This document shows positions 4,485 through 55,199 of a stretch of 64,000 bases of DNA, in pieces (within the stretch, counting starts at the first letter, position 1; the number at the start of each line of letters is the position of its first letter). The notes below the pieces were generated by a model that did not search any database, was not told where the DNA came from, and saw only the letters and a program-made list of their open reading frames with translations. Made by a program: the position numbers and the translations under genes. The DNA lies in the NCBI RefSeq assembly GCF_963576615.1, contig NC_088711.1, positions 9,976,869 through 10,040,868 of the forward strand, given 5' to 3'. This DNA is from Watersipora subatra (taxonomy: Eukaryota; Bryozoa; Gymnolaemata; Cheilostomatida; Watersiporidae).

Positions 4485-5612
4485 GTGTTATATATCAGTA
4501 TGTTATATCTTTACACTACCTACTATATATCAGTATGTTATTCCTTTACACTACCTACTATATATCAGTATGCTATATCTTTACACTACCTACTATATAT
4601 CAGTATGTTATATCTTTACACTACCTACTATATATCAGTATGTTATATCTTTACACTACCTACTATATATCAGTATGTTATATCTTTACACTACCTACTA
4701 TATATCAGTATGTTATATCTTTACACTACCTACTATATATCAGTATGTTATACCTTTACACTACCCACTATATATCAGTATGTTATACCTTTACACTACC
4801 TACTATATATCAGTATGTTATACCTTTACACTACCTACTATATATCAGTATGTTATATCTTTACACTACCTACTATATATCAGTATGTTATATCTTTACA
4901 CTACCTACTATATATCAGTATGTTATATCTTTACACTACCTACTATATATCAGTATGTTATATCTTTACACTACCTACTATATATCAGTATGTTATATCT
5001 TTACACTACCTACTATATATCAGTATGTTATACCTTTACCCTACCCACTATATATCAGTATGTTATATCTTTACACTAGCTACTATATATCAGTATGTTA
5101 TACCTTTTACACTACCTACTATATATCAGTATGTTATACCTTTACACTATCCACTATATATCAGTATGTTATATCTTTACACTACCTACTATATATCAGT
5201 ATGTTATATCTTTACACTAGCTACTATATATCAGTATGTTATACCTTTTACACTACCTACTATATATCAGTATGTTATACCTTTACACTATCCACTATAT
5301 ATCAGTATGTTATATCTTTACACTACCTACTATATATCAGTATGTTATATCTTTACACTAGCTACTATATATCAGTATGTTATACCTTTTACACTACCTA
5401 CTATATATCAGTATGTTATATCTTTACACTACCTACTATATATCAGTATGTTATATCTTTACACTAGCTACTATATATCAGTATGTTATACCTTTTACAC
5501 TAGCTACTATATATCAGTATGTTATACCTTTACACTACCTACTATATATCAGTATGTTATATCTTTACACTATCTACTATATATCAGTATGTTATACCTT
5601 TACACTACGTTC
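4485..5612. repeat. 35-bp satellite array, about 32 copies
   Basis: Units of 35 bases with core TATATCAGTATGTTATATC followed by TTTACACTACCTAC. Within 5085-5400 a 141-base block (four units, one with an extra T, TACCTTTTAC) recurs: the marker is at 5103, 5244 and 5385, then 5491. The unit lacks stops in all three forward frames over most of the array, so long frames here are not genes. Confidence 0.97.
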
Positions 5613-5951
5613 TTGTATATTAGTATGTTAAGGCTAGTAGTCAGGTGCCACATATTATAACCTTTATAAGCTTCAGGTTTTGATTGTGAGACTGTGTCAA
5701 GATGGGTCAGATGCAAATGTCTGTATGAATGCGTTAGACAAAACCACACTAGCCCAATGTACAAAACACAAAAAGGTTTTTCCATCGGAACAGGAGCAAG
5801 TTAGAATGTAGCAATCAATCCATGATTAAATGTACAGTTACAGCTGTACAGCTGAAATAGATCAGTTTCTATAAATCATGATGGGAAAGAAATGATCACA
5901 TAATCACATTAGGTGTTGATAAGAAATAATGTATTCCCTTGATACACTTTT

Positions 5952-12300: not shown

Positions 12301-15300
12301 TTTTAAAAGCTTAACGTTCTGCTTAGTGGTAATGGGTATGACCTTGCACCACATGGCATTTTTTGTGCCATACACTTACATCATCAGTCTAACCAAGGAG
12401 AAGCAGATTCCTCCAGAGAAATCAGAGTATCTTATCATCTGCTTTGGTAAGTAGTTTTACTAGGTCACATATTAAGTAGGCCACATGGTGGTAGATTAAA
12501 ATCAGAACAGCTGCTTGCAATTTCACCACTACAACAGCATGTGTCATCATTGCATTTCTTCCATTAGTTTGCCATGATGTTAATAACTAAACAAACGCCA
12601 TTGCATAGATTGTATGGTTATTTAAAAGATAATAGCAATACCTTCGGTTGAATAAACAACTAACGTTTTCTTTACCATGTGCCATCGCTTTTGTAGGAAT
12701 GTCCAACTTTGTGTTCAAGCTTCTGATTGGCCGAGTAATGACATTATACAAAGTTGAGCAGCTCTACGTTGTGATGACGACACTTTTTTTGGGGGCGCTC
12801 GCGGCTACCCTCATTACATTTTGTCAAGAATTCTACCAGTTTGTTTTAGCTGCCATATTGTATGGAGGCACATCTCGTAAGTTGCTATAACCTCAACAAC
12901 ATTGTGCTCTGAATGAAGACAGTGTGAAGCACTCATAACTGTGAAGTCAAACATAACTTTTGGGTCAACTCTTTGAAAAAATTTTAAGATTTAAGATTTT
13001 AAAAATAAATTCAAAAAGTATTATTCGAGCTTCATTTTTGCTGATAGCACTTTTTCAATAGGAATTGTTTCCCATATGTTCAATCTGTATGTGATGACGA
13101 CTCTTAATCAATTAATTGACCTCAAGTTCTGCCACTGCAAGGTGAGCTGTGGTGAACTATTCATTGGCACATGCTGACAAAATGATCTTCACATAAGAAA
13201 TTTCCAATATTATTGATAGACAGACTTAAAATGTACAGCAGTATTTGTATCTCTCTGCCAAACTATTTTTATTTTAGAAGAGTGATTTGGTTACCTAAGC
13301 TTTCCTATTTCACTTATAGAGGAAGGCCTCAAGAGTGCATAATTTGCTAATTCCTAACAATAACTGAAGTTCAACATAGCAAAGTCTTTTATGGAATTCT
13401 CTAACTGTTATATATCAGCTTTAAAAAGTCTGTGTCTATGTGACTATGTGTCTATGTAACTATGTGTCTATGTAACTATGTGACTATGTAACTATGTGAC
13501 TATGTAACTATGTGTCTATGTAACTATGTGTCTATGTGAGTATGAATCAATGAACCGTTTACAATCATGGGGCAACAAGGACTGAGCTTTCCTTAGCAAC
13601 TAGCAAACAGATTTAAATTGAACACAACCAGAGAGTAAAACATTTGAACGATCCTATCAAACATTCACATATCTAAACTATTCCCACCAAGCAATGTGCT
13701 AAAGAATATTATTGTTGTGAGGAAGGCTCGGGCACAACAAATGCTGTGTTAGCTACATGTATTTCAAGTATTTGAAACAAAATAAAGGTGATTCATAGAC
13801 TAACATCAAGTATGCAGATTTTATACATTGTTCCCTTCTAGTGAACATGATATATTATGGTTGTTTTTACTGGTGATTATACAGAAATTGTGAGATACGT
13901 ACATAGGATAAATTTTATAATGTTATTGCAATTGTGATTTAGCACCTTGTTATATTTTGCAGCCATAGTGACGATATATCTGACAAATATACTCGTGAAA
14001 TATTTGGGAATTGAAAATCTGACAAACGCCTTCAGCCTAGTCACAATCATTAGAGGCATGGGGAGCTTATCAGGACCCCCATTGGCTGGTGAGTTCTCCT
14101 AGTACGTTATACTCAGGCTCTAATCAGGGACAAGACAACTCCAACTTCAAATGCGGCTGAAGTAGGTGATGTGTATTGTCTTCTCACACAAAAGAAGTTA
14201 TTTTTAGAAAAAGAAAGCTAACTTGCATGGCTGATTTCAAGTTTAACTCTTATACAATATCATATATTCTGTAGATTCCAAGAACTAGATAGAGAAAATT
14301 TAACAGTTTTATCTGGGAGCAAAATAATATAATATGAGTTTTTAGTGGGTATACAATTTTAAAATGATAATTTTTATCACTTTTAACAAAATAGCAAAAT
14401 TGCCAGCTTGTAAATTGCAAACTTATGAGTATTTCAGTGAGCAAGTCACAAATAAGTTGCCAATATTTACAAATTAGCACAATCTTTCACTTTTATTCTA
14501 AACAAAACTACTATATTATATGTAATACAAAACCATGTTTTATCATCGTTTATCAAACTTATGTAAAAGTCTTTTGCGCCATAACCTCTAATGATCACTC
14601 AGTTTGTATACTTGAGGAGCAGGTACTGCCAAGTTTTAATATTTGAGGAGCAGGTCCTGCCAAGTTTGTATATTTGAGAAGCAGGTTCTGCCAAGTTTAA
14701 ATATTTGAGATTCAGGTCCTGCCAAGTTGGTATATTTGAGGAGCAGGTCCTGCCAAGTTGGTATATTTTAGAAGCAGGTCCTGCCAAGTTTAAATATTTG
14801 AGATTCAGGTCCTGCCAAGTTGGTATATTTGAGGAGCAGGTCCTGCCAAGTTGGTATATTTGAGAAGCAGGTCCTGCCAAGTTTAAATATTTGAAGAGCA
14901 GGTCCTTCCATGTTTGGATATTTGAAGAACAGGTCCTGCCAAGTTGGTATATTTGAGGAGCAGGTCTTGCCAAGTTGGTATATTTGAGGAGCAGGTCCTG
15001 CCAAGTTGGTATATTTGAGAAGCAGGTCCTGCCAAGTTTAAATATTTGAGATTCAGGTCCTGCCAAGTTGGTATATTTGAGGAGCAGGTCCTGCCAAGTT
15101 GGTATATTTGAGAAGCAGGTCCTGCCAAGTTTAAATATTTGAGGAGCAGGTCCTTCCATGTTTGGATATTTGAAGAACAGGTCCTGCCAAGTTGGTATAT
15201 TTGAGGAGCAGGTCTTGCCAAGTTGGTATATTTGAGGAGCAGGTCCTGCCAAGTTGGTATATTTGAGGAGCAGGTCTTGCCAAGTTAGTATATTTGAGAA

Positions 15301-17080
15301 GCAGGTCCTGCCAAGTTTAAATATTTGAGGAGCAGGTCCTGCCAAGTTTAAATATTTGAGGAGCAGGTCCTTCCATGTTTGGATATTTGAAGAACAGGTC
15401 CTGCCAAGTTGGTATATTTGAGGAGCAGGTCTTGCCAAGTTGGTATATTTGTGGAGCAGGTCCTGCCAAGTTGGTATATTTGAGAAGCAGGTCCTGCCAA
15501 GTTTAAATATTTGAGATTCAGGTCCTGCCAAGTTGGTATATTTGAGGAGCAGGTCCTGCCAAGTTGGTATATTTGAGAAGCAGGTCCTGCCAAGTTTAAA
15601 TATTTGAGGAGCAGGTCCTTCCATGTTTGGATATTTGAAGAACAGGTCCTACCAAGTTGGTATATTTGAGGAGCAGGTCTTGCCAAGTTGGTATATTTGA
15701 GGAGCAGGTCCTGCCAAGTTGGTATATTTGAGGAGCAGGTCCTGCCAAGTTGGTATATTTGAGAAGCAGGTCCTGCCAAGTTTAAATATTTGAGGAGCAG
15801 GTCCTTCCATGTTTGGATATTTGAAGAACAGGTCCTGCCAAGTTGGTATATTTGAGGAGCAGGTCCTGCCAAGTTGGTATATTTGAGAAGCAGGTCCTGC
15901 CAAGTTTAAATATTTGAGGAGCAGGTCCTGCCATGTTTGGATATTTGAAGAACAGGTCCTGCCAAGTTTGGATATTACATTACCGTATCATCTTTTGCAG
16001 GTTTTGTTATTGAGTTGACAGACAAAACTAAGTCAGCATTTTATGTCGGAGCATGCGCTGACCTATGCTCAGTCACTATGTTTGGGCTGGTGCTTTTTAT
16101 AAACAGGAAACGGTTCACTCCAGCCACGCGCCACTCCTCCATTTCGATGAAGCAAGCTGTCACCGATGAAGAACGTGATTCTGGGGTAGATGAGGTACTA
16201 GCGTTATGATAAAATATTAGTGTTGCTCCTATCTCAGCTTGATCAATTGAGAATATGCAACTGTAAACTGAAGCAGAATTTTTGATCAAAAAGATTGGGC
16301 TGTCTTGGGACTAAATCAATTTAATTTTATAAATTTGTTTTTAATTAATGTTCAAACGCCATGATTACAAATAACAAAAATCTAGCAGTATTTCAAGCAT
16401 TTACAAATGTTTTTGCATAGATCCAAATATTCATAGAAGTTTTTAATAGTTTGTATGAGCGGCAAATTTTGGATGTTTATTTTACAAACTGTAGACACAA
16501 AATCTGAAATATACTTAAACAGAATACTACAAACATGAAAGATATGATGAAGAGAACTATTTTTTCCATAAATTTTGCAGCATTTGATGTGCGCTGAAAC
16601 TGAGGCCAAATTTATTTTGCATTGTATAAATACATAAATTGTGTTAATATCTTTCATAATTATGCCAAGCTAACTCACAGCGTTTATATGAGCTTGTATC
16701 ACAACAGGAATTGTACTCTCTTATATGAACAGTAAAAAGTGGCACAACTCCCATTCTGTGACATAATTTATCAATTATTAAAAATGCTAGTGACATTATA
16801 TATTATTATTATTATATATTATTATATGTTTGGTTTCAGTAGCTCAAGTCTGAGTCGTGAGAATGCTGTAAACTCATTTTTAGTCTCCCATTTTCTTTAG
16901 GATGAGAGCCTGTTGTCACCAAAAGTAATAGTTACTGTACCGACAGCAGAGGGAAATATAGATAAACTTATTCACTACAGCAATGAGAATTTTGATCACC
17001 TGGCAGCCAAGGATCAAGTTGAGCACAACAAAAGAATGAGAGAGCGTATTGCAGAAAACAAAGCGATGGCATCGTCATAA
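6038..17080 (+). CDS. Monocarboxylate transporter-like protein (SLC16 family), 8 exons, 642 aa
   Basis: Predicted proton-linked or facilitative solute carrier of the major facilitator superfamily in the plasma membrane; the substrate cannot be read from sequence. Exons 6038-6320, 9623-9772, 10996-11097, 11733-12446, 12697-12876, 13963-14088, 16001-16194 and 16901-17080 join in frame at GT..AG borders, giving 1929 coding bases. The family TM1 signature (EVPDGGYGWVIV, residues 34-45) and the TM5-type signature (GYYFDKNRAFATALASSG, exon 3) are clear. About twelve membrane segments are split by a polar cytoplasmic loop of roughly 150 residues (220-368). The His/Lys-rich N-tail and charged C-tail lie inside the cell in this family. 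The start is the first ATG after a TATA-like box. The long loop and about 640 residues suit the MCT9/12/14-like subgroups better than MCT1-4, so no symbol is given. Family assignment is sure; substrate is unknown. Confidence 0.93.
7405..7525 (+). repeat. Dispersed repeat, copy in MCT-like intron 1
   Basis: Contains TGGAAGGCACAGAGCATATG and GCCAAAAAATGTGGAAACCC, matching the reverse strand of 36190-36300. Likely an old interspersed element of unknown class. Confidence 0.6.
7925..8175. repeat. Diverged two-copy tandem in MCT-like intron 1
   Basis: TAGCCTTGGATAAGGGGTGT (7930) and TAGCCCTGGCTAAGGTGTGT (8096) start two stretches that stay similar for about 85 bases, 167 bases apart. Confidence 0.5.
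9103..9149. repeat. Perfect palindrome, 22-base arms
   Basis: ATGATTAGTTTTGATTGGCT opens the left arm; arms are exact and the loop is AAT. A second 17-base palindrome (TGGCTACAATGTAGCCA) follows at once, repeating the centre. Confidence 0.95.
9200..9540. repeat. Dispersed repeat, copy in MCT-like intron 1
   Basis: About 340 bases starting GCAAAATTCATT and sharing GAATTCGCATCATGGAAAAT and AAAAATATCTACCAGTTTGT with 11272-11592 in the same orientation. Class unknown. Confidence 0.88.
9623..9772 (+). CDS. MCT-like gene exon 2
   Basis: Fifty codons following acceptor atttcag, ending at donor gtcagt, phase 1 to phase 1. It encodes TM2-TM4 material (LGGMILTNLF, then LVGITGCIVAASGLILSYFV). Too short to stand out as an ORF, but the frame and borders join exons 1 and 3 exactly. 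Confidence 0.88.
10996..11097 (+). CDS. MCT-like gene exon 3
   Basis: Thirty-four codons following acceptor ttgtag, ending at donor gtaata, phase 1 to phase 1. It encodes the highly conserved SLC16 stretch GLGMGLMFNCAYLSVGYYF followed by DKNRAFATALASSGTG, which makes this short exon certain. Confidence 0.9.
11272..11592. repeat. Dispersed repeat, copy in MCT-like intron 3
   Basis: Second copy of the 9200-9540 repeat, clearly diverged, ending about 140 bases before the exon 4 acceptor. Confidence 0.88.
11733..12446 (+). CDS. MCT-like gene exon 4 (TM5-TM8 and central loop)
   Basis: The largest exon, 238 codons. It opens with GFGTLISRL and the conserved YGWRGSLFIL, crosses the membrane, then carries the long polar loop and re-enters the membrane at about residue 369. 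The reading frame stays open upstream to an ATG at 11612, but that stretch is intron: the acceptor attttag|GG restores the SLC16 consensus with exon 3. Donor is gtaagt. Confidence 0.9.
12697..12876 (+). CDS. MCT-like gene exon 5
   Basis: Sixty codons following acceptor cttttgtag, ending at donor gtaagt. It encodes the TM8-TM10 region (MSNFVFKLLIGRVMTLYKVE and the next two hydrophobic helices). The Gly-Arg pair sits where SLC16 members usually have a conserved arginine in TM8. Confidence 0.88.
13430..13545. repeat. 8-bp tandem repeat in MCT-like intron 5
   Basis: Alternating CTATGTGA, CTATGTGT and CTATGTAA octamers, about 14 units. Confidence 0.9.
13963..14088 (+). CDS. MCT-like gene exon 6
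   Basis: Forty-two codons following acceptor attttgcag, ending at donor gtgagt, phase 1 to phase 1. It encodes TM10-TM11, ending in the typical late-SLC16 stretch IIRGMGSLSGPPLAG. Confidence 0.88.
14613..15977. repeat. 31-bp minisatellite array in MCT-like intron 6, about 44 copies
   Basis: Units of 31 bases built on GGTCCTGCCAAGTT plus TTTGAGGAGCA. Monomer variants (GTTTAAATATTTG, CCTTCCATG, GAAGAACAG, CTTGCC) recur in blocks: the CCTTCCATG variant starts at 14904, 15152, 15369, 15617 and 15803, always a whole multiple of 31 apart (8, 7, 8, 6 units). The reverse strand stays open through the array, which is an artefact of unit length. Confidence 0.97.
16001..16194 (+). CDS. MCT-like gene exon 7
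   Basis: Follows acceptor tcttttgcag, only about 24 bases after the end of the 31-bp minisatellite. It encodes TM12 and the start of the cytoplasmic tail (RKRFTPATRHSS). Splicing at GATGAG|gtacta is preferred. Retention of the intron would end the protein after five more codons (TGA at 16207-16209), so a short isoform is conceivable. Confidence 0.87.
16901..17080 (+). CDS. MCT-like gene exon 8 and stop
   Basis: Follows acceptor ttttctttag in phase 0. It encodes 59 hydrophilic residues (DESLLSPKVIVTVPTAEG onward) ending KAMASS and TAA. The tail has no membrane segment. A poly(A) signal follows at 17377. Confidence 0.82.
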   Translation, partial: DESLLSPKVIVTVPTAEGNIDKLIHYSNENFDHLAAKDQVEHNKRMRERIAENKAMASS

Positions 17081-27521: not shown

Positions 27522-30500
27522 GTAAATGACTAGAGATAGTTATATGCTATGCTGCTTTTAAGAGGCTTCTAGTTCAACTAATACCATATATCTATTATAA
27601 TATATGACAAAGTTTAAAGTGTTTGATTTATTTGAGCTTTTTTTTGATGGTTTGGATCAATTTTTAAGTTTTGTTACATCTCAATGCTCGTGTCACAAAA
27701 TCTTTCCCTTGTGCTATACACAATTCATTTGCTAAAATCTTTTCTAATAGGTAATGAGCTTTGGCACTGATTTATGTAAGTACTTACCTGTCGTTAAATC
27801 TCACATTATTGAATACTGATCGCTGTTGCTAAAAGTATAATGTAACTTATAAGTGGAACTAGCTTCAAGTGAAGCGTTTTATTGAAGCCAAGTTTAGCAG
27901 TTGAACCAAGTCTCATTTTTCTGTATTGACTGCGGTCTATCTTGTTGTTACGAGCATCATATAAATCAGACAGTGAATATAGCAAGAAGTAATATTTGAT
28001 GTAGTTAATGTTGGGTAAATATAATATAATGGTTACTATACCATACCAAGTGCTTTAGCTGGTCCACTCTGTATTTTTTCATTCATACCTAGTCAAACAT
28101 GTTTACATAAACTAAGTAGGGTAAAATATTCTTTGCTTCATATCTAAGTAAGATCAGATCGAATTGAGCTCCTAAGCATCTGCTGCTAAAATGGGAGATC
28201 TCTTTGGTTGCACTTTTATCTGCCTAATCCCTTTTCTCATTTCTCCCATCAGGAACAGCATCGCTGTCAAATCTGATTGTATACAGCAAAGACGAAGTTG
28301 AGGATCTGTTAAGATTACCAAGGAAGGACTATATACTAGACTCTGGAGAGACGAAGTCAGCACTGCTGGGATTGATAGATGTGCTATTCGCTTATCTTTA
28401 TGATATGAGGTTTGTTCGCTGAGACCCCAGGGCTGATACTCCTCCCTAAAAGGCCCATTAGGTTCGGCCCAAAATCACGTTTTAGGGGGGGTTTTCAGAC
28501 CATGAGGCACTGTCAGTGAATTTGCTACTTTAGGGGTGGCTTCCACAGCCAAGCCAGTAAAAGGGCCCATGCTCATTAAGGTTTTATTCAGCCAAAGTAA
28601 TACCAAAAAATTGCACCGAAATTCCAGTCTTCATTTTAATACAAATCGCATTAGAATCTGCATGCTTGCTGACGGGAAACAAATGGAAAAGAGACAGTCA
28701 ACACTGAATCATCTTAGCAACTCTTTAGCCATATACTCAGAACGAATGATATGCTATTTCTTTCATTGATATTTACTATGTTTTCCTTTGTAAATTAAAA
28801 TGATGATCTGATGGTTGATGTTTGGAATCAGTTTTATTAACCCTTTTTGCAGGCTTAGTGACATTTTGTCGTTTTGCGATACTGACGCTAGTCGGCAGAG
28901 CAACTATTATGTCGCCACACGAACGGTTTTTATAAATTGATTTATGGTTAGCTAATTGCCTGTTTTTGTTTAATTTTTTATTAATAGTAAACTACAATAT
29001 ATCAGTCTCTGTTAGCAACAAAAAATAAGCCGTTTGCAGAAAAAAAAACGATCGTTTTTGCAATACTAAACAAACAAAAAATTCGAAATCAAAACGTATC
29101 TAAATAAAATTGGGAATTTTGTTTGTAGGTTTTTTCTGCTTTATTAATGAATCATATTGGATGTTTAGCAGGGCTTAGAACCTGGGCGCCCTTTAGAAAA
29201 CTCCCAGTGTTTAGGGGGTGTATTTCAAATTGACCAACCAGGTGATTGGGGGTAGAATATCCAAATTCAAATTGACCAACCAGGTGATTGGGGGTACAAT
29301 ATCCAAGTCTGGGCCTATCCAGGTGGGTGTTTCTTTCAGAGTATCAGCCCTGGGGCTGAGACTCCCTCTTTTTGATCTAAAGTATATAAAAGGGTTTTGT
29401 CTTGACATAACTAACCCTGCATGATGAAATGAACGTCTTCACCTATCTCATATAGCAATAATTCCTTTGTCTAGCTCATCTATACCATGAGGTAGGTTAG
29501 GAGGCTCTATAGAGGCAGGGAATGGGTGATCGATTTGTAGCATAAGGTAGGTTAGGAGGCTCTATAGGGGCAGAGAATAGGTTATCAATCTGTAGCATGA
29601 GGCCCACTAGGTAACGAGATTTGTTGTCTAGTGGCAGAGGATTTGGTTAACAATTTTAGTGGGTATTCAATATCAACTGCAGGTTAAGCGTCTAATGTAC
29701 TGTCATAGCCTCTTTTATCATCTGAATATGCTAGTTGTATATAGCTGGTGCATTATGTGTACTAAAGTATACATATGATAAGGTCTGCTCTGTACACAGT
29801 AGTGTACATATGATAAGGTCTGCTCTGTACACAGTAGTGTACATATGATAAGGTCTGCTCTGTACACAGTAGTATACATATGATAAGGTCTGCTCTGTAC
29901 ACAGTAGTGCGCATATGATAAGTTCTGCTCTGTACTTAGTAGTGCGCATATGACTAGGTCTGCTCTGTATAAACTAGTGTGCATATGACTAGGTCTTGCA
30001 TGGAAGAAAACACTGTTGAGTCTTGCTGGACAGTAAGGAAGCTGAGCTCCTGCCTTTCATGGCTTGTCGTGCACGCTGACCTAAAGACTACGCTGTGTGG
30101 CTGCCTTAGACGAGCCTTGTCTTACCCTCTCTACAGACACTGGGTGCTTGCTATGAAGGTACTCATTTACTCTTTCCTCTCAGCTATCTCTCTTTCTTCC
30201 CCTTCTAGATGTTCTCTAGTTACTAGTTGCCAGCTATATATGATGTTACCTCCTGTATTGCTGGCAGCAGACTGGATACTGATGCGCTGTAGCAGGTGTT
30301 GGCATGTGTCTAGTCTGGTTGCTAGCACTCTATCGAGCTCGTACTGCATTCTCTCTGATTTGAACGCCTCTGCTCATCATATTTAGATGCGTATAGCTGC
30401 GCTTGTGGAGAAAGTTTTTGTTATCTCGGGAAAAAGTAAAATTTCATTAATTTCTAAAATGTTTTCATACTGTTTAGATGTTAGTAGTGCTCGTCATTTA

Positions 30501-33500
30501 CAAATACAACTCAGAGCAAGAAATTGAAGGTTTAAAAACTGTCATATGTACAGAATATTAGTTATAGACAACATATTTACCATCTTCAGCTACCATATTT
30601 TATGTGCTGCATGGATAAGATGCACTGGATAATAAGGCACAGCATTAATTAATATTTCAATTTCTGTCATTGTCCACACATAAGGAACTTCAGATTATAC
30701 GTAGGGTAACCTGATATAAATTCTGTCCAATACGATTAAGGGTGACTAGTAATGCTCAGGCATGTACAGTCACTTCTAAGGTTATATGAGATGGGTTTAT
30801 ATGGGCCTGTAAAGTATATGTCTTACCTTTTTCCTTTTATTCAGCTGAGTAGAGTCTATAAAAATGTTGCTGTAGATGGTTTTAAAAATTTTAGATATTA
30901 TATTTAATCAACATTAACTACGTCAAATATTACTTCTTGCTTTATTCACTGTCTGATTTATATGATGCTCGTAACAACAAGATAGACCGCAGTCAATACA
31001 GAAAAATGAGACTTGGTTCAACCGCTAAACTTCAACATTCTAATTGACTTCTTGCACCAACCATCGGGTACAAAGACTTCTTTTAGAGAAGCTTTCGTCG
31101 TCGGCCATCACTTTAGTAGGTTGGTGCGGGCTGTGAGGAAAAGTTTAGGCAACGCCTGGACCTTTAAAGCTGAATGAATAGCTAAACGTTTCATTAAGTT
31201 AAGGAAACTTACACTAGATCAAGAAAAAGGATGCCAGCTTTTCACATATTAAATATGCTGTTTTCAGTGTGTTGTGACAAACCAATGAAAGTAAATACCA
31301 ACCCCTGCTTCATTCCTAGCTCCCCCTAGTGCCAAATATGAGGAAACTTGAAGGTTGACTTGCAACAAAATTCACATGGCAGTTATTTGATATCAAAAGA
31401 TTTACCATGTCTTACTCTGCTGTGTTGTAGGTGCAAAATATGTGGAAATGTGATTACAAGCTCTTAAAAGCTCAAAAACGAACAGTTAATCGCAGCTATC
31501 ACGAACACACCGTAGATTGGAATCCCATTTCAAAACGGCTCAAATGGGACATAGCTGAATAAGATGGCTTCTGTTTACACTTTCATGCAACCTCATTCGT
31601 CGAAATATTTTCACAAATATACTTCACGCATTCAATAAAACCATGTCTATAATTGTCCTTACGTGTCTATTTCATGATCATTGTAATGCTGTCACTCTGA
31701 GCACTGGTTTCTTAAAACCTACCATAAAAATTCATTTAATTTTTTAACCTTAGCTCGAAGGAGTGCATATCATATTCTGACAAACATGACGAGCCTGTTG
31801 GTCACCTGTGATAGTCGGAAAAATGCTGCAGAAATTGTTCGCGCTATTTGGCAGGAGGTATGGGTCACATGATCAAATTATGAATAAATGATTAGACCAA
31901 GCTGAAACGAAACTGTAAAGTAGCGAGCATCTATATTTGATAAGGGTTTTTTGGTAAAACCCGAAGTGTTTGTCATAAACTAGTGCTACGAGACATTTTA
32001 TATTCAGCATTTTATTGGCCTTTAATTTCACGTGATAACATCACATGTCAAAACAATAGCGACAATGTTTGAGTACGTCATCGAAATAAAGAGATTCCAA
32101 ACTATGACGTTTTTGTGATGGCTGCGATTAATTGTTCGTTTTTTAGCTTTTAAGAGCTTATAATCACATTTCCACATATTTTGCACCTACAACACAGCAG
32201 AGTAAGACATGGTGAATCTTTTGATACTAAACAACTGTAATGTGAATTTTGTTGCAAGTCAACCTTTAAGAGTTACGTAAGGTTTGCTTGTTTGAACTTT
32301 GCAAGAACAGCTCTTCTCAACTGATGTGCATCCACGTGTTGTCTTCTATGCCTACTTTTATTTCTGCTAGTAATAGTCAGGTGTAATAACTATACGTGCA
32401 ATTATTCTGCAAATTCTAAGGGTGATTGATTGGTGCAATTGTTGAAGTGTTGGTTTGCAATGCTAAAAGTTGTGAGTTCGAATTCCACATGGTGCAATCT
32501 GTTTCGCAAACTCAATTGGGTCTTCGGATGGATGCAGAGACACAGTTTACTTGTACACTTATAGTTTAACTATAAACTTGCAGTTTATTATACACTTGTA
32601 CACTTATAGTACAGAATGCATCACAGTACCAGTATCGGAGAAGTAGTAACACGCATGCCTGTGTGGGTTATCATTAGTTTTTTTACAGTTTTACTCGTAG
32701 CAGTATGGTCATAAAGCTCATTCCACCAATATCTGCTGCTTTTTTATGCTGGGAAGTTTTAAGCAAATCTGTGAGCCAGTTTACCATCATGCTTTCAGCT
32801 CTTTATAAGCTAAACCCTACTCTAAACTTTTAGTAATAAATTATTGGTAGCTCAAACCATGAAACTCATCAGTTTACTCTAGCTAGCTAATTTTTTTAAC
32901 ATTTCAGAACTTGAAGTTTCATTACTTTTACTATTATTGTTTGTCGTTCATTTTCTTCGTATTTTATAGAGAAACCTGTAGATGTTTGTCGGTTCCTTTA
33001 GCTGATAAGAACTTTATAAGTTTTTTAATATCTTCCGTCAGTTTTTGGCGCATAACTTTGGAGCTAAGATGTTCAAATAGCAACAGTGTAACATAATAAC
33101 ATTTTATTGATTCAACTGCATTCCTGGTTTAGCAATGACCTATCTCAAATTGATAACTGACTATTGCCCAATTGCCTACGCTATATGAATTTTCATATAT
33201 GTATGAATTCCATGTTGATATAATTTCATAACTTACTATATGTTACTAGTAGCGTGACAGTCCAGCGCACTGAGATATAGGTGTGCCAATAGAGCACAGA
33301 AAATCACTATTTGCACAATTATGCTGAACTACTTGATGGTGGTCGATTGGCTCAGGTGTTAGACTATCAGTCCTTCAAGCCAAAAATCGTGAGTTTGAAT
33401 CCCGTTAACAGCTATGTTTTTTTCTTAACATTTGATATATTCGAACAGATGAATGGATGGACACTGCTGTTATTATAGTAAAAGTACTGAATGCCTGGCG

Positions 33501-34853
33501 TTGCACATGTAATAAAAAAAATTTTGTATAGAAAATTTATTTTCAATTGAATAATTTTTTATACCCAATGAATTTGAGTAACGTAACCTCGTCTAAATCT
33601 TTACTGTAATAAGAGCCGTGGGCGTTTCTCTGAAGCCGGCGTTAGGAAAAAAATTGCGCCATGATCCCGCACGCAATCACGATCTTCAGGCATGCTAGTT
33701 GAAACATGAGGCATGAGCATTTTAACCAATCAGCATGAAAGATTGGCCGGTGTAATAAATATGACGTTCACAATTATTCCATAGTACAGCCAGTTGGACG
33801 CATAGTGTAATGGATAGCATGCCTCTCCACAGAATTTGAGGTTCCGAGTTAATTCCAGCGTGAAGGGGGTTTTATAACTTTTATTGCTGTAACTGGACAA
33901 ACGATAGACAAACAAATGCTAATATTTATATAGATTGAATGGTGATTAACCCCTCGTTAGTTTGCAGATTTCAATCACTTTTACAATAAGTCAGCTCAGC
34001 TAAGAAAGAAATGCTGTAGATTGAATTTCCTTCTTCATGACAGGTATATTTTGTTTCTGTACACTAATTAGCCTTATATTTTGTTGCCCACTCATAACGC
34101 ATCACACGGTTGTCTATTTAAAAAAATGGTTTGTAGAACATTAATAGATCTTCAACTGCAATGGAACTACTGGAGCACACATTCTTTTTGTAGGTCCTGG
34201 AGGATGTATGCATTGCACTCTGTCTTGGAAGAAAACATGTGGTGAAATGTTTGCTAAGCATCCATCGCTTATTCAACAACAATGAGCCTTACCATGTCCT
34301 CAATGATCTCTACATAACTGACTACTGCACTTGGATACAGACCGTTTCAAATGATACCTTGATGTCTCTCTCGAACCAAATCCGTTGCTGTCATCTCAGT
34401 AAGGATGATCTTGGCTTGGATCTACTTGCTGTCGAAGAGTCTAGTAGCGACGATGGATCCTGTGATACAGAGGATGATAGTGAAGAGGATCAGGAAGAGA
34501 TGGGAGTGATATCCTGTTTGGGGCAAAGCGGAGCCGTCAGCCACTCTAAGCTGATCACTGAACTCGGTGATAGCTGTGCTCTAGTGCATGAAACAGTCAC
34601 TACTGATAGTCTAGTTAGTGAAACAGTCTCTACTGATACTCTAGTTAGTGAGACAGTCACTACTGATAGTCAAATTGGTGAACTTGTCTCCTGTGCTACT
34701 AATGTTACTCAAAGCATTACTAGCATTGCTAAAGCTAGTGAGGCAGTTACTATAGGTACTCCAGCTAATGATAAAGTCATTAGTGACAGTTTAGAAACTT
34801 TAGATGGTGAAGGTTTGGATAGAAAACTTGCACAACTAAATGTCTCAGATTAA
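26822..34853 (+). CDS. SHQ1: SHQ1 homolog, H/ACA ribonucleoprotein assembly factor, 4 coding exons, 560 aa
   Basis: SHQ1 is the chaperone that binds the pseudouridine synthase dyskerin before H/ACA snoRNP and telomerase RNP assembly, acting in cytosol and nucleoplasm. Exons 26822-27521, 28253-28409, 29993-30158 and 34194-34853 join in frame (1683 coding bases). The N-terminal CS-like (HSP20-fold) domain starts MLTPRFTLSQ, with the conserved FYCKPYHLKL and GIFTINIPK. The SHQ1-specific helical domain follows, with DHYLADF-like EHYIADFCDD, YPLYRHW, KCLLSIHRLF and LNDLYITDYCTWIQ. The length is close to the human 577 residues. The C-tail has an acidic Ser/Asp/Glu run (about 422-444) and 10-residue repeats. 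An acceptor-like ttgcag at 26777-26782 suggests an upstream non-coding exon that I could not locate. Identity is secure. Confidence 0.95.
27882..28025. repeat. Inverted-repeat arm in SHQ1 intron 1
   Basis: About 140 bases (contains CTGCGGTCTATCTTGTTGTT) repeated in reverse at 30898-31035 with only a few differences by eye. Together the arms bracket exons 2 and 3. Confidence 0.92.
28253..28409 (+). CDS. SHQ1: SHQ1 exon 2
   Basis: Follows acceptor tctcccatcag, phase 1 in and phase 2 out. It encodes the weakly conserved segment ending ALLGLIDVLFAYLYDMR, equivalent to the human SLIDILLAYCYETR region. The donor gtttgt is a weak match to consensus, and a transposon target duplication begins nine bases into the intron. 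Confidence 0.85.
28426..29354. mobile_element. hAT-like non-autonomous element in SHQ1 intron 2
   Basis: 929 bases with termini CCCAGGGCTGATACTC and the exact inverse. A perfect 8-bp target duplication GCTGAGAC flanks it (28418-28425, 29355-29362), the size typical of hAT elements. The interior holds a 42-bp unit twice (29225-29305) and no transposase frame. Confidence 0.87.
29490..29610. repeat. Two-copy repeat of about 62 bp in SHQ1 intron 2
   Basis: GAGGTAGGTTAGGAGGCTCT and its follow-on GATCGATTTGTAGCAT occur twice in tandem with small differences. Confidence 0.8.
29757..29992. repeat. 35-bp minisatellite at the end of SHQ1 intron 2
   Basis: About 6.5 units with core CATATGATAAGGTCTGCTCT plus GTACACAGTAGTG. 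Copies drift toward the 3' end (GATAAG becomes GACTAG). The last partial unit holds the exon 3 splice acceptor. Confidence 0.93.
29993..30158 (+). CDS. SHQ1: SHQ1 exon 3
   Basis: Encodes SCMEENTVESCWTVRKLS through YPLYRHWVLAMK, matching the human NVESAWNIRKLS...YPLYRH block. The acceptor catatgactag lies in the last, partial unit of a 35-bp minisatellite and has little pyrimidine tract. Donor AAG|gtactc, phase 0. Confidence 0.88.
30898..31035. repeat. Inverted-repeat arm in SHQ1 intron 3
   Basis: Reverse complement of the intron 1 arm. Separated from it by about 2.9 kb containing exons 2 and 3. Could be two copies of one element in opposite orientation. Confidence 0.92.
31347..32270. mobile_element. 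Long-TIR element, copy 1 (SHQ1 intron 3)
   Basis: Arms of about 150 bases begin CTTGAAGGTTGACTTGCAAC and end in the inverse, 924 bases in all. The same element occurs, turned round, at 60942-61836. No clear target duplication. Confidence 0.87.
32430..32570 (+). repeat. tRNA-derived SINE-like copy
   Basis: Ordered A-box-like and B-box-like motifs (GAGTTCGAATTCC is a good B box) followed by a GGATGGATGCAGAGACAC tail block, in SHQ1 intron 3. It does not fold as a tRNA by eye. Confidence 0.5.
33340..33480 (+). repeat. tRNA-derived SINE-like copy
   Basis: TGGCTCAGGTGTTAGACT (A-box-like) and GAGTTTGAATCCCG (B-box-like) 45 bases apart, then a GATGAATGGATGGACACTG block like that of the copy at 32430. 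Confidence 0.55.
33497..33940 (+). repeat. Composite dispersed repeat with tRNA-like module, copy 1
   Basis: Begins near TGCCTGGCGTTGCACATG, includes ACCCAATGAATTTGAGTAAC and AATAAGAGCC, then a tRNA-like stretch at 33793-33860 (TAGTGTAATGGATAGCATGC). Shares head and tail blocks with the copy near 44.9 kb. Confidence 0.55.
34194..34853 (+). CDS. SHQ1: SHQ1 exon 4 and stop
   Basis: Follows acceptor ctttttgtag in phase 0. It encodes the conserved KCLLSIHRLF and LNDLYITDYCTWIQ, then an acidic stretch and three near-identical decapeptides of the form ETVTTDSLVS (34590-34680), and ends at TAA. The tail is probably disordered; in other SHQ1 proteins it is also Ser/Glu-rich and poorly conserved. Confidence 0.92.
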   Translation, partial: VLEDVCIALCLGRKHVVKCLLSIHRLFNNNEPYHVLNDLYITDYCTWIQTVSNDTLMSLSNQIRCCHLSKDDLGLDLLAVEESSSDDGSCDTEDDSEEDQEEMGVISCLGQSGAVSHSKLITELGDSCALVHETVTTDSLVSETVSTDTLVSETVTTDSQIGELVSCATNVTQSITSIAKASEAVTIGTPANDKVISDSLETLDGEGLDRKLAQLNVSD

Positions 34854-37491: not shown

Positions 37492-38417
37492 GTACTAATA
37501 GTGTTTCGAACTATTTAAGCTCAACAGCATTGGAAATCATAATGGTTTTTATTTTCTGTTTTTCGCCTTGTTACAGCAAATTTTTTGTTAATAATTTAAT
37601 GAATGCGCATATTAATGTTGACTAACTAGTGGTGACTGTAAAGCAAATTGTGTTGCTGTTGCAAAGCAAATAGATGTTGCTTATTATGTGGATTAACTAA
37701 CCCTTGCTTTGGCGAACAGCTACCTATCTTTATAAACTTCACAAAGAGTAGGCGCTATTTTGGCTGATTATCTTGTTAAATAACTAGTTTTAGTAAATCA
37801 TACTTAAATATAAGTGACTTTTTGTTTAATATTAGGTAATGTATTATTTTCAAATTTTTCAGCATCAGATTAGTGCATTTGTATATTATAGGTAATGCGT
37901 ACGATCGCGTTGTCAAATTATGGAGTTGTATACTCGTTAAACTACAGCAATGACGTACTAATAGTGTTTCGAACTATTTAAGCTCAACAGCATTGGAAAT
38001 CATAATGGTTTTTATTTTCTGTTTTTCGCCTTGTTACAGCAAATTTTTTGTTAATAATTTAATGAATGCGCATATTAATGTTGACTAACTAGTGGTGACT
38101 GTAAAGCAAATTGTGTTGCTGTTGCAAAGCAAATAGATGTTGCTTATTATGTGGATTAACTAACCCTTGCTTTGGCGAACAGCTACCTATCTTTATAAAC
38201 TTCACAAAGAGTAGGCGCTATTTTGGCTGATTATCTTGTTAAATAACTAGTTTTAGTAAATCATACTTAAATATAAGTGACTTTTTGTTTAATATTAGGT
38301 AATGTATTATTTTCAAATTTTTCAGCATCAGATTAGTGCATTTGTATATTATAGGTAATGCGTACGATCGCGTTGTCAAATTATGGAGTTGTATACTCGT
38401 TAAACTACAGCAATGAC
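37492..38417. repeat. 463-bp perfect tandem duplication upstream of the 14-3-3 gene
   Basis: 37492-37954 and 37955-38417 read base for base the same as far as I compared them, with GTA repeated after the second copy. It ends about 370 bases before the 14-3-3 start codon. Either a very recent duplication or an assembly artefact. Confidence 0.95.
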
Positions 38418-38421
38418 GTAA
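38414..38421 (+). promoter_or_regulatory. CRE-like site TGACGTAA upstream of the 14-3-3 gene
   Basis: An eight-base match to a CREB/ATF-type element about 370 bases before the start codon, at the junction of the 463-bp duplication. The matching place at the end of the first copy (37951-37958) reads TGACGTAC. Function is inferred from the motif alone. Confidence 0.35.
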
Positions 38422-46059: not shown

Positions 46060-46985
46060 ATGTCTTCGGAAGTGGATAAGTTAATTGAAGCAATTACGGC
46101 TCAAAACCAAAAGATGAAAGAGCAACCAAAAACTCATCAAGAACAACTACTGGTACAAGCTTATTTGGGAGAAAACGAGAAACTCATATAACTACTGGTG
46201 AAAGGTCAAACTAAGGCAGCAGCTAAGCTAGCACCATCAGCAGCCTTACCCAAGTTTTCAGAGTATGATTCAGCCACAGAACTACTGACTGATATGACGC
46301 TTTTGTAGCAGCTCACTCTATCCCTGAAGAGAGGAAAGCTAACGTGTTCTAAATTAATCAGTCACCTGTTTTCTACAAACATCAGCAACATGGCTGGCCA
46401 CATGGAGACTCCGAAACGTATAAATGAAGTTACCATAAAAGAAATAGACAATTTTTTAAAAGAACAATATGATCATACACGATTTTTAGTACGTGTACGT
46501 TATAAATTCTGAAGTACTATGTAAAGAAAACCTGGAGAAACTATTAATGAATTAGCAAATAGAATTAGACAGGAAGCGACTACTTGTGACTTTCCTGATA
46601 TTAATTATCCATTAGATGAAGCTATGAGGACATGGTTTGTCTGATAAAAAATAATTAAGCTCTCAAACCTTCAATGTAAAATAAAATGAGCTATCTTTCA
46701 AAAAAGCTAATAAAATTAAAATTGCAACTGAAACAGAAGATGCAGCCAAGATAGCTAAAGAAACTATATATGGAGAGCAACAGAGAGTCAAGAAGGTACC
46801 ACCAGATCTCAGAACTAAAAAACCAACAGGAACTTCAAACAACAAAGAAACAAGACAGAAGACTTTTAAATGCTACAGATGCAATAAAACTACACATACC
46901 GCCAAAGCATGTCCTTATAGATCTGCTACATGTCGTTTCTGCCAGAAATTAGGATATTTAGGAGTTGCTTGCCCAAAAAGAAAAG
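46060..46985 (+). pseudogene. gag remnant with two zinc knuckles
   Basis: Begins at an ATG 110 bases after the LTR (MSSEVDKLIEAITAQ) and is broken by stops and frame changes. Two CCHC-type knuckles at 46871-46972 bind nucleic acid in intact elements. The first is regular (CYRCNKTTHTAKAC). In the second the histidine is tyrosine (CRFCQKLGYLGVAC). Confidence 0.85.
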
Positions 46986-47059
46986 CAACTACCAATCAAA
47001 AGTTTATAGCACAGAAATCTACATTAAAACAACAGCTTAAAACTTTTCGAAGAATACAT

Positions 47060-47332
47060 ATGAAACAACTTCAAAAGACTATTGAAATAGAAGAACAGAT
47101 CGTAGAGTTGGAGTTAGATACAAGAGCCTGTGACAACTTTATTACTCAGGAAGTCTGGCGTAAACTTGGAAAGCCTGTACTCTCTACAACAACTACAAAC
47201 TACGAAGCTGCTTCAAAGCATCCTATAGAAGTAATTGGACAGTCCCAGCTGAATACTAAAACAGTAAAAGAAAACAATATTGCTTTGAACTTTGTAGTTA
47301 GCCAGGTTCCAAACCTCAATCTGATAGAATGA
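47060..47332 (+). pseudogene. Retrotransposon aspartic protease remnant
   Basis: Segment IVELELDTRACDNFI shows the retropepsin active-site context, but the Gly of DTG is replaced by Arg (codon 47123-47125). Followed by a stop at 47330. Confidence 0.8.
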
Positions 47333-47519
47333 GGAGCAATCAATATATTAGGGATACCAATAGACAACCTGCTGAACCAACAAATTACTACCACTTGTAA
47401 AGTAGTAGACTAGGAAATAGCTGACAAAAGTCTACAACAATCTTGCGAGCAACTCTGCAAGGAATTCAGTGATCTATTCAACAACGATTTAGGCTGTCTA
47501 AAAAATTACGAGCTAGAAA

Positions 47520-48330
47520 TAGGATTTAAAGTAGATGCAAAACCAGTGTTTCACAAACCTTGACCTGTTCCATTTTCTACTCAAGATGAATTAAATCTAG
47601 ACTACAAAAATGGTATTCAAAGAGGAATTTGGAAGCCAGTACAGTTTAATCAATATGGTATGCCTGTGGTTCCGGTCAGGAACGCACAACTCTCTAACAG
47701 TCGGCAAGGATCAATCATAGTATGTGGAAACTACTCACAAACAGTCAATCCACAATTTGAGACTCACAGACAGCCTATACCTTTACCCAAAGACCTGAAG
47801 AACAAGTTAGGAGGAGGGTACGAATACACTAAAATTGATCTAGCTGATGCATACAACCAAATCCCATTAAGACCAAACAGCCAGAAAAAGCTTGCTCTTA
47901 GCACTCATAAAGGAACACTACTACAGATGAGACTTCCATTTGAAATCAGTTCAGCACCTTAATATTTTCAAGAGATAATGAAACAGTTAGCAGCTGATCT
48001 ACCAGGGGTAGCTGTATATTTAGATGGTATACTGGTTAGTGGTACTGATGCTACAAGTCATTTACAGAATTTGTGACAACTACTTACAAGACTGAATGAG
48101 AAAGGTTTACGATGTCGTAAAAAGAAGTGCCATTTTGCTCAACCTTCAGTAGAATATCTTGGTCATCACCTTTCAGCAAAAGGAATTTCTAAAGGACTGA
48201 AAGCAGATGCTGTAAAACAGATGCCTGCACCTACTAATATAAACAGTTTACGCTCATTCCTTGGACCAGTACAGTTCTACAGCAAAATCTTACCTAACCT
48301 ATCAGTATTAATGAACCATTACATCAGCTA
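47520..48330 (+). pseudogene. Reverse transcriptase remnant
   Basis: Contains YTKIDLADAYNQIPL, LPFEISSAP, YLGHHLSAKG and FLGPVQFYSKILPNLS blocks of a Ty3/gypsy RT. Stops interrupt it after SSAP and after LQNL. The catalytic YxDD reads YLDG at 48017-48028, so a metal-binding aspartate is gone. Confidence 0.9.
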
Positions 48331-48395
48331 ACTAGAAAGAATGTGCAGTGGCAGTGGACTGCAGAACATGAAAGTAGTTTTTTTGGCTAAAGCAA

Positions 48396-48810
48396 TTGTT
48401 GACTGCTGACACAGTTCTTACACATTTCAACTCAAAGCTGCCTATAGAAATAACATGTGATGCTTCTGAAACAAGAATGGGAGTTGTCTTATTTCACAGA
48501 TATGAGAATAGTGAAAAACCTATTATGCATGCTTCTAAAACATTGACTGACACTCAAAGAAAGTATGGTCAAATTCAAAAAAAGGCACTAGCTATCATAT
48601 TTGCGTTAAGGAAGTTTCACCAATTTCTCTATGGCAAAAAATCACCATTGTTACTGACCACAGAGCATTAACATCAATGTTTGCACCTAACAAAGGAACT
48701 CATGCACTTGCTGCTAACCGATTAGCAAGATGGGCTCTCTTACTCAGTCAATATGAATATGAAATAAAATATAGAAAAACCAACAAACATGGGAATGCAG
48801 GTGCTCTTAG
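48396..48810 (+). pseudogene. RNase H remnant
   Basis: Shows LPIEITCDASETRMG (first catalytic Asp intact), HASKTLTDTQRKYGQIQKKA and FALRKFHQFLYG. The frame shifts near 48655, after which TDHRALTSMF continues in another frame. Confidence 0.88.
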
Positions 48811-48925
48811 GTGATTACCTGTTGGACCAGATGTAGAGTTTGACAAAGAGGAAAACGATGCTGACATAGACATCATTTGCACCATTAAAACTATTGGAGC
48901 TCAACTAAATTCCACAGATCCTGGA

Positions 48926-49760
48926 GTGATAGTCAAAGAATCTTCTAAAGACATTGTTACCTCTCCAGCAATGGGATATACAACAGGATGGCCACACAGA
49001 GAGAAAACAACTCCAACTACTTCTGATATCAAAGAATTTAAGAAATTAGAAAACTCACTATCTGCATGTAATGGTTGTCTACTTTATGGAAACAGAGTAG
49101 TAGTCCTTACCAGCAGCCTACAAAAAGAAGTACTGAAGATATTGCATCTCGAATATTTTGGGATACAAAGGATGAAGCAGCTAGCACGCACCACAGTATA
49201 CTGGCCTAGAACGGATGCTGACATGGCGTAAACAAGCAAGTTGTGTACATCATGTGCTGACAATCAAAGACTACCTTTAAAGTATCCGCTACATCCCTGG
49301 ATGCTTTCTGAGAAACCATGGAGTCGTCTACACTTAGATCATGCTATTAACTTTATGGGAAGTAACTGGCTAGTTCTCACAGATGCTCACACTAAATATC
49401 TCTGCATTCACAGGACCATTTCTACCTCGACCAAATCAACTACTCACCTCTTAGAACAAGATTTTTCACACTTTGACTATCTACACATGTTAGTTACAGA
49501 TAATGCTACTAGCTTCAAATCAGAAGAGTTTTAATATTGGTGCAAAGAAAGAGGAATTATACATTTATCAAGAGTTCCTTCTCATCCTGCAACAAATGGA
49601 GCTGCTGAGAGAATGGTGCAATCATTTAAACAAGCTTTGAGGAAGTCTAGCTTACCACTTAATGCAGCCTTATTAGAATTTCTGATGCATTATAAAAAGA
49701 CACCTTTAGAGACAGGATATTCACCAAGCCAACTGCTACATGGAGGGTAAATCCGATAAA
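48926..49760 (+). pseudogene. Integrase remnant
   Basis: Zinc-binding region (HLEYFGIQRMKQLARTTVYW, then CTSCADNQRLP) and catalytic core with HLDHAINFMG, VTDNATSF and NGAAERMVQ; the last two acidic residues have D-35-E spacing. Stops fall between the zinc region and core and after SEEF. Confidence 0.9.
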
Positions 49761-49829
49761 AAATTGACACAATTATTCCATCACCAGTTCATTCTGCTCA
49801 AGAGAGACAATTAGAAGTGCAAAGCTTCT

Positions 49830-50235
49830 GAATGACACAGTAAACAAGGTTCACACCTATCAAGCTGGAGATCCATGCTATGCGTTATACTGTGGCCCTA
49901 GAAGATCTAATCAGCCCCGATGTGTTCCAGTACTAGTGACTAAAGTCTATGGCCAGCGAAGTGTTAATGTTAAAGTATGGTCAAGTGAACCTACATGGAG
50001 AAAAAATGTAGAGCAACTGCAATCAAGATTTAGCACAGAAGAAGATCTAGACCCTGGAGATATATCTCACACTTCAGATGAAGATATTGACAAACTTCCT
50101 ATTCCTGTACCTCCTGATGAACCAGCGTGTCAACCAAGGAGACCAAATCCTAGATACCTTCTGGACAGTGGTTATGGACCAAATAAGCCACATAGATCAT
50201 CCAGAAGGAAACAGCAAACACAATTTTATCCGTAA
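49830..50235 (+). pseudogene. Integrase C-terminal tail of the gypsy element
   Basis: Best open part 49936-50235 encodes VYGQRSVNVKVWSSEPTWRK, an acidic linker and a basic Pro-rich end (CQPRRPNPRYLLDSGYG). Such tails follow the integrase core in animal gypsy elements. Confidence 0.75.
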
Positions 50236-53861: not shown

Positions 53862-55199
53862 TTATTGTGTTCTTAATCTTGCAGCAGCTTGCAGTCCTTC
53901 CTCTAGACGTAGATGTAGGTCTGACTGCAAAGAGCTCACAGGAAGGATGTGGTTGACCATCGATTTCATGTAGATGATGATGTAGTTCACTATTTTGCTT
54001 GATGGAAAGTAACAAGGTCTTTGTCTTTTCGCCTGCCGCAGGGTCATATACTCTGTTTGACTGTTGTGGTTTAGGTAGGTGCACATCCTGATATAGCTCG
54101 CCAAGGCCAGTAGATTGTACAAAGCCGTTTTGAAAGAGTAGGAGATCCGATGCTGACTCGACAGCAGTTCCAGAGCATCCCAAGAAGAGGAAGCATGCAA
54201 CTCATAAAGAATACTCAGGTCTAGAATGATGAGCGATGGGTAACGATATATCTTCTGTTTCACCTCCACCACCCCATCTTCTACAAATGTAGCTTCATCC
54301 AACTGATAGTCTTCCACGTCTTGTTCAAGCATCTCCTTAGTTAACTGACGGCGGTGCTCAGTCATTGGAATAGCTTGCTGCTGTCGCACGATTCCTGGGA
54401 GCAGGTTCCTCGAGTTGCTGTAAATCTCCCTTGTAAATGCTAACATTGCGGAATCGTCTCCTCGAAGGGCATCTTCTGGATTTGGTTCATTGTAAATGAT
54501 CTCAAACTTTTTTACAAATTCGTCAGGGCTTGTGATGTATTTATTTTTTCGTTGAGTTACACCGTTGCCTGTAGGAATGTTTCCTGCCCCTCGTTGCAGC
54601 CCATCAATCTTAACTCCACTCATCTCTAAGTCTTCAAACCAATCCAATTCACTTATGTTCATGTACTTGAGTTTCGTCTCTTGCATGTTTCCAATGAGAA
54701 AGTATATGTTCATAGCTAAGCTCATGAAATATTCCTTGGTTTCTGCTGTTTTCGTCTCAATAATGAAGAAAAATTCCAGATCAGAATATGGAGTTGCTTC
54801 ACCTCGAGCTAGCGAGCCTTTAGCAGCAGCTGTAAAGAAGCAGGGTGGCGTTCCGACAACATTCACCGCATCTTCTATGATCATCCTTGCGAAGTTCAAC
54901 ATACTTTCATTGCAGGAAGTGACTGCATCTTTAATGGAGCACGAAAGTCGTGAGACGCTGTTCTGCATCGACTTGCTTCTTCTTATTCTCAAACGCAAAT
55001 GCCGCATATCATTTCGAGTACACATTCGGATCTCTGATATGCGCGCCTTGTGTTTGTCTCGCAGAGATATCATTTCATGTAGCGACATTGTCCTGTAGCC
55101 CCATCGGTATCGATTCTGCACAAGAAGAGCTTGTTCTTCAAATGCCACAGCAGCAGCACCAGAGCTTCGGAGAGCACATGAATTGTATAGAGCATGGGC
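53862..55199 (-). CDS. Nucleotidyltransferase gene exon 2
   Basis: 446 codons with stop. Holds the catalytic motif and the whole remainder of the protein. The frame is open upstream to a TAG that is the splice acceptor itself, so the GTG at 55148 is not the start. Ends ARLRTQ and TAA. Confidence 0.8.
   Translation of the reverse strand, partial: AHALYNSCALRSSGAAAVAFEEQALLVQNRYRWGYRTMSLHEMISLRDKHKARISEIRMCTRNDMRHLRLRIRRSKSMQNSVSRLSCSIKDAVTSCNESMLNFARMIIEDAVNVVGTPPCFFTAAAKGSLARGEATPYSDLEFFFIIETKTAETKEYFMSLAMNIYFLIGNMQETKLKYMNISELDWFEDLEMSGVKIDGLQRGAGNIPTGNGVTQRKNKYITSPDEFVKKFEIIYNEPNPEDALRGDDSAMLAFTREIYSNSRNLLPGIVRQQQAIPMTEHRRQLTKEMLEQDVEDYQLDEATFVEDGVVEVKQKIYRYPSLIILDLSILYELHASSSWDALELLSSQHRISYSFKTALYNLLALASYIRMCTYLNHNSQTEYMTLRQAKRQRPCYFPSSKIVNYIIIYMKSMVNHILPVSSLQSDLHLRLEEGLQAAARLRTQ

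Follow-up and report, generated by a model that had tools for sequence, protein, structure and literature searches.

The second intron of the SHQ1 gene in the 64-kb stretch of DNA that was analysed (the window) ends in a 35-bp minisatellite whose last unit runs through the best-supported splice acceptor of exon 3. We consider it probable that this array is a splice-junction minisatellite, or 'mirage', born from the old 3' splice site of the intron. The window sits on contig C4, and the genome searched comprised 784 Mb in 239 contigs. Its gene structure is eukaryotic, and the genome resembles that of an animal. The gene is laid out as follows:

ends 27521, + strand, SHQ1 exon 1 (CS domain), part of the joined open frame
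28253..28409, + strand, SHQ1 exon 2, ending in ..LLGLIDVLFAYLYDM plus AG, part of the joined open frame, genome match E 7.4e-26
28410..29992, + strand, SHQ1 intron 2, GT-AG (GT at 28410-28411), 1583 bp
29993..30158, + strand, SHQ1 exon 3, Pfam SHQ1, genome match E 4.1e-32, donor GT at 30159
34194..34853, + strand, SHQ1 exon 4 including the stop, genome match E 4.1e-37

The open frame is unbroken across the joined exons 1 (CS domain), 2 and 3, which agrees with the end of exon 2 as given in a preliminary description of this DNA, and exons 2-4 are covered by Pfam SHQ1 in a single stretch of 200.2 bits. A 182-residue query found SHQ1 at a single locus in the genome, with three exon matches; no retrocopy from which the junction could be read was found in the genome with this query. 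Exon 4 holds an in-frame 30-bp tandem repeat (34589-34682), encoding three 10-residue units (ETVTTDSLVS-like) in the C-terminal tail.

Intron 2 had been described as consisting almost wholly of repeats, and repeats do occupy 1311 of its 1583 bases (83%), counting both target duplications and the 55-bp repeat. The following were recognised:

28418..28425, unstranded, left target site duplication (TSD) GCTGAGAC, by sequence reading
28426..29354, unstranded, hAT-like MITE of 929 bp with TIRs CCCAGGGCTGATACTC.., by inverted repeat, dispersed copies and TSDs
29355..29362, unstranded, right TSD GCTGAGAC, by sequence reading
29478..29602, + strand, 55-bp tandem repeat of 2.3 copies, from the tandem-repeat listing
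29752..29996, + strand, 35-bp minisatellite of seven units, the first diverged; unit 7 contains the acceptor and four exonic bases

Most of the intron length is contributed by the MITE, which starts 16 bases into the intron and represents an independent insertion close to the donor. Its earlier placement at 28418-29362 is correct when both TSDs are included. The TIRs are complementary at 17/17 bases, 16 of which fall within the element as bounded by the TSDs. In a genome search 42 matches were listed, counting the window copy (from 40 scored of 951 first-look candidates), and among the matches listed other full-length copies were up to 98% identical. An 8-bp TSD with at most one mismatch was found at all 20 MITE loci that were cut out (L011-L030, window copy included), of which L013 and L018 also allow an alternative end pairing that has no TSD. 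TSD length and TIR are the criteria by which a hAT element is placed. Sharing the 8-bp target duplication, the short inverted repeats and the many copies of hAT MITEs, the element appears to be an ordinary member, its superfamily being assigned on these two criteria. Elsewhere in the window, LTR-retroelement-like pieces in two frames were seen at 46685-50235 (reverse transcriptase, RNase H and an integrase zinc finger, with the integrase core slightly below the cut-off), and a 445-residue open frame on the minus strand (53862-55199) matched the nucleotidyltransferase family DUF294 with 24.4 bits (cut-off 21).

The 35-bp minisatellite had been said to reach the acceptor at 29991-29992; its seven in-register units run through that AG. 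TRF gave a 35-bp period, 6.6 copies and 91% matches. Identity between different units is 20-35 of 35 positions, against 6-12 of 35 with three flanking 35-mers, and the best match of the array consensus elsewhere in the window is 20/35. Units 2 and 3 have the same sequence, unit 4 departs from it at one base and the outer units have drifted, the best identity to any other unit being 27/35 for unit 1 and 30/35 for unit 7. Every one of the seven units has an AG at the equivalent position, and six have AGGT. The sequence CATATGACTAGGTCT, allowing up to two mismatches, occurs six times in the window, always within the array, where 0.14 occurrences were expected. The acceptor context is indeed shared upstream, as proposed earlier, not by several units but by one, which has the identical 15-mer (29947-29961). 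In the other upstream units, four carry CATATGATAAGGTCT and one CATATGATAAGTTCT where the acceptor 15-mer stands.

Three AGs were of interest as the acceptor of exon 3:

AG 29956..29957, + strand, decoy acceptor in unit 6, carrying the acceptor's 15-mer; frameshift, stop 10 codons on
AG 29976..29977, + strand, in frame in unit 7, a decoy or an alternative acceptor; its use would insert SVHMT, with a lower Pfam score
AG 29991..29992, + strand, best-supported acceptor of exon 3, by the frame test, Pfam and the ungapped junction against 3zuz

The unit 6 AG bears out the expectation of a decoy at most 35 bases upstream; the nearer in-frame AG, only 15 nt upstream, had been overlooked. The frame test combined GT and GC donors from 28380-28439 with AGs from 29700-30018. 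The frame stayed open in five donor/acceptor pairs, of which two have a GT donor (28409 to 29977 and 28409 to 29992). Of the 18 AGs from 29760 to 29991, 17 led to a stop 10-16 codons past the junction. It is unlikely that splicing goes to 29977, or to both 29977 and 29992 with a five-residue SVHMT variant as the result. Position 29977 is in frame with donor 28409 with no stop and is the first AG to follow a UGAC (29951-29954) by more than 15 nt, but the Pfam SHQ1 score is 9.6 bits lower (190.6 bits, against 200.2 bits with 29992). Moreover, the 29992 form aligns to the solved Shq1 3zuz, which we take to be the yeast protein, without a gap at the junction, although that stretch is weak (20.1 bits). 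The conserved SHQ1 protein is best restored with the terminal AG 29991-29992, which on that ground is taken as the site in use. The pyrimidine fraction at -20 to -5 is 0.94 at the acceptor of intron 1 and 0.44 at the array acceptor. On reading, two nearby 14-3-3 acceptors were AT-rich too, so weak acceptors may not be unusual in this genome. A few hundred bases 5' of the first 14-3-3 exon match lies a 463-bp tandem duplication (37492-38420; 2.0 copies, 100% matches).

According to the accessible text of one study, an AG within about 12-15 nt of the branch point can be skipped over; apart from such AGs, the first one downstream is used (PMC1431707). In unit 7 alone, TATAAAC replaces the TACACAG of units 2-5, leaving one decoy AG fewer. 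The As of this TATAAAC precede AG 29992 by 19-21 nt and AG 29977 by 4-6 nt. It could thus be a candidate A-rich branch-point-like stretch, from which the spliceosome would bypass the too near AG 29977, and the upstream AGs of the array would be decoys, nearly all terminating translation shortly past the junction. At the corresponding place and distance unit 6 carries TACTTAG, in addition to the same acceptor 15-mer; this discrimination model is therefore weak, and use of AG 29957 is compatible with it. There was no full match to yUnAy among the candidate branch points listed. Since the acceptor sits in the last unit, gain or loss of inner units would alter the length of the intron and not its terminal site, which speaks against a strong form of the copy-number effect on splicing that the preliminary description had raised.

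That the array regulates SHQ1, through decoys or AGGT dual-specific sites leading to nonsense-mediated decay tuned by copy number, seems very improbable. The early stops behind the upstream AGs (17/18) and the AGGT in 6/7 units would fit such a role, and the part of the literature seen states that AGGT, a motif enriched in tandem-repeat genes, can function as a donor as well as an acceptor (PMC10809524). However, early stops are expected from most intronic sequence, a conserved RNA hairpin is absent from the array, and lancelet mirages reportedly leave splicing undisturbed, as far as the accessible portions of the reports go (PMC3087553, PMC3902484). Our reading is that the array is a tolerated and presumably neutral by-product of local duplication and no regulator.

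A hairpin that would mask the decoy AGs (TGTACAC-AGTA-GTGTACA) was considered and rejected, as it is not conserved across units and gives no covariation signal (0.248, against 0.247 in shuffles). Its folding energy is -8.3 kcal/mol in unit 1 and in unit 2, to which unit 3 is identical, with z of -2.5 and -1.3. Unit 5 forms it weakly and with an interruption, and in units 4, 6 and 7 the best fold is a different one or none is found; folding of the whole array gave a z of -0.24.

As to the origin of the array, a short stretch containing the old 3' splice site would have given rise to tandem copies on its intron side, which would have grown to seven 35-bp units by slippage or unequal exchange; homogenisation of the middle units and drift of those at the edges would have followed. 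The preliminary description had the array spread from, or into, the splice site. We favour 'from', by analogy with two sister cases in the same genome (L066 and L054, below) and in view of the single-place flank; SHQ1 itself gives no direction, because only four exonic bases lie in the repeat. Both direction of birth and mechanism at SHQ1 are proposed on this analogy. A recent array predicts relatives that have a unique acceptor and no array, and finding such relatives would not contradict the observation.

A foreign or dispersed minisatellite might instead have grown into the intron and been halted at the exon by selection, the acceptor then being a unit that happened to be usable. We regard this as rather improbable, even though the SHQ1 unit takes in just 4 nt of exon and arrays are dense in this genome: there are 13 in the 64-kb window and 8 in 57 kb of MITE flanks, and arrays make up about 4-8% of the sampled sequence. 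Three long minisatellites lie in the window at 4489-5630 (35 bp), 14601-15976 (31 bp) and 56023-56617 (23 bp). Open frames of 392 and 349 codons overlap the 35- and 31-bp arrays, respectively, so a long open frame in the window can be an array artefact. The SHQ1 array is present in full length at one place in the genome and also has 18 other matches, of which C2 accounts for 15 and C7 for 3 (E down to 9.6e-18), and which fall in arrays of 34- and 28-bp units; the 34-bp units at C2:76812736-76814981 share a 14-base identical stretch with the SHQ1 unit. In a circular alignment of units, C2 scored 16 and C7 scored 8, each above 200 shuffles. For C2 the shuffle maximum was 8 (n=200), which would favour a dispersed family, but the unrelated window array at 4489-5630 likewise beat 200/200 shuffles, making this a lenient test. 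Among 11,929 random window units, 3 reached a score of 12 and none 16. A Gumbel fit gives 1.2e-3 for a score of at least 16, and the counts drop faster than this (1.1e-2, 1.5e-3 and 2.5e-4 at scores of 8, 10 and 12). By extrapolation there would be about 1e5 arrays genome-wide, among which a best score near 16 is unsurprising, and the C2 array is therefore taken as probably no kin of the SHQ1 array; the C7 arrays are judged in the same way. Against a foreign minisatellite, moreover, the array flank (29363-29770) matched only itself genome-wide, in a search that passes over very common words, and in two sister cases it is exon code that was copied into the intron. An exact 26-mer of the array had no occurrence in viral contigs.

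An origin of the entire intron 2 from the tandem array, of the kind proposed for AGGT duplications, is extremely improbable. The units contain AGGT, the array terminates at the acceptor, and tandem duplication is a supported route of intron gain in the portion of the source that was accessible (PMC3443670); however, 1.3 kb separate the array from the donor upstream of it, next to which no array is listed.

The preferred reading, birth from the splice site, has three sister cases in its favour, all in further housekeeping genes of this genome. In the AP-1/2 beta gene at L066 the acceptor, TTTTCCCTAG followed across the junction by GTTGTTATGAAATACCTTGA.., opens an exon encoding VVMKYLELLDK, and the protein aligns to AP-2 beta over the junction ungapped. 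Copies of a 38-bp unit stand 38 and 76 nt upstream, with 30/38 and 26/38 identical positions (shuffle maximum 24). The exonic part is repeated in them at 19/20 and 17/20 (shuffle maximum 15), and the AG is lost in the nearer copy and kept in the farther. At L054 the CCT-eta acceptor (GTTGCAG followed by GAATACCAGGCTATA..) opens an exon encoding EYQAIVDTEWDIL. One imperfect copy (27/36) starts 60 nt upstream and reaches the exon code, with GTTGCGGG replacing the acceptor; this is a two-copy duplication and no array. Because the exon in both is conserved protein code, the intronic copies at L066 and L054 would most simply derive from it. A donor is involved at L065, where the AP-3 beta donor (CTCCTAAG followed by GTAAAA) lies within 38-bp units and the junction is ungapped against AP-3 beta. 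Three of five copies, at +38, +996 and +1034, are 29-31/38 identical (shuffle maximum 24), and those at +958 and +76, with 23 and 20, are not above shuffles. On reading, the donor array is interrupted by an inserted repeat (approximately L065:1182-2062), which appears to be the same inverted-repeat element as that of SHQ1 intron 3 (approximately 31353-32268). L067, which like L065 and L066 was chosen for a long open frame, had no array.

We surveyed the frequency of junction duplications by comparing a 36-mer with sequence at offsets of 20-120, counting at least 26/36 identical positions as a duplication, at exon-hit ends and at control positions. As L065-L067 had been chosen for long open frames around exon matches, they are uninformative on frequency. 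In the CCT set (18 of 30 cut CCT loci, those with introns, plus L067), 1/71 exon-hit ends was duplicated, against 58/895 controls; at L068-L071 the figures were 0/33 and 9/162. Pooled, leaving out L065, L066 and the window, this amounts to 1/104 exon-hit ends against 67/1057 controls (Fisher p=0.025, an optimistic value, since loci overlap and controls are not independent). By script, L065 and L066 together gave 0/8 duplicated ends (controls 8/95), because their repeat-bearing exons, found by TRF and reading, were absent from the profile hits. The window gave 1/14 (controls 3/58), and with L065, L066 and the window included the totals are 2/126 ends and 78/1210 controls. Hit ends are profile ends and not always exon ends, and the sample is small. 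By TRF, none of 69 exon-hit ends in the CCT survey lay inside an array; at L056 an array was read to begin 26 nt beyond the hit end, leaving the donor free. In the window, 1 of the 11 splice sites checked lies within an array (the last 14-3-3 sites were left out). Local duplications are thus common and seem depleted at exon ends, where a few survive. Among the chaperonin matches, twelve Cpn60/TCP-1-like ones of about 1.1-1.2 kb cluster at C3:22.6-30.7 Mb (L037, L038, L040-L046, L048, L049, L052); each is in one piece with a frame of 391-519 codons, four have one internal stop, and by the look of it this is an intronless expanded family.

The SHQ1 array has a minisatellite unit length, a unit spanning the boundary and further units that keep the splice AG, and its exon side is thin (4 nt). 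Splice-site copies as units are also reportedly found in the IFI6 (6-16) minisatellite, said to have been described by Turri in 1995 as having multiple splice donors of which several are used; there the site is a donor, whereas in SHQ1 it is an acceptor. The dual-specific sites of UBC likewise consist of tandem AGGT copies, but the UBC repeats are coding and their sites are used stochastically, according to the text available (PMC10809524), and any use of the copies in SHQ1 would be hypothetical. In the accessible portions of the lancelet papers, mirages are minisatellite-like repeats across intron-exon boundaries, reported for Adh3 and the globins BflGb6 and BflGb9, and for troponin C and PGBD5 as well (PMC3087553, PMC3902484). 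As far as these portions go, the likeness extends to repeats over the 5' or 3' splice site, many units with AG or GT, and boundary units that escape homogenisation. The differences are the host genome, in which contig numbers reach at least 11 and the five contigs with a length given measure 64-77 Mb, unlike a lancelet karyotype, and the small exonic share of the SHQ1 unit. No report of mirages outside lancelets was found in a literature that was partially covered, thin in subscription journals, and in which a pine paper uses the word. The SHQ1 array thus fits the anatomical definition of a mirage, thinly on the exon side, and would apparently be a known kind of structure found outside lancelets.

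Tentatively, and with the balance somewhat against it, we suggest that junctions in this genome, far from lancelets, undergo recurrent and continuing duplication in units of 35-60 bp, leaving about one mirage per hundred housekeeping splice sites and feeding acceptor shifts and new introns. In the sources as far as accessible, mirages have so far been described from a handful of lancelet genes, and four cases in one genome that is not lancelet-like would make the process countable. How the spliceosome picks out a real site when an almost identical one lies 35-38 nt off would become testable, and the four cases offer concrete places for watching intron boundaries slide.
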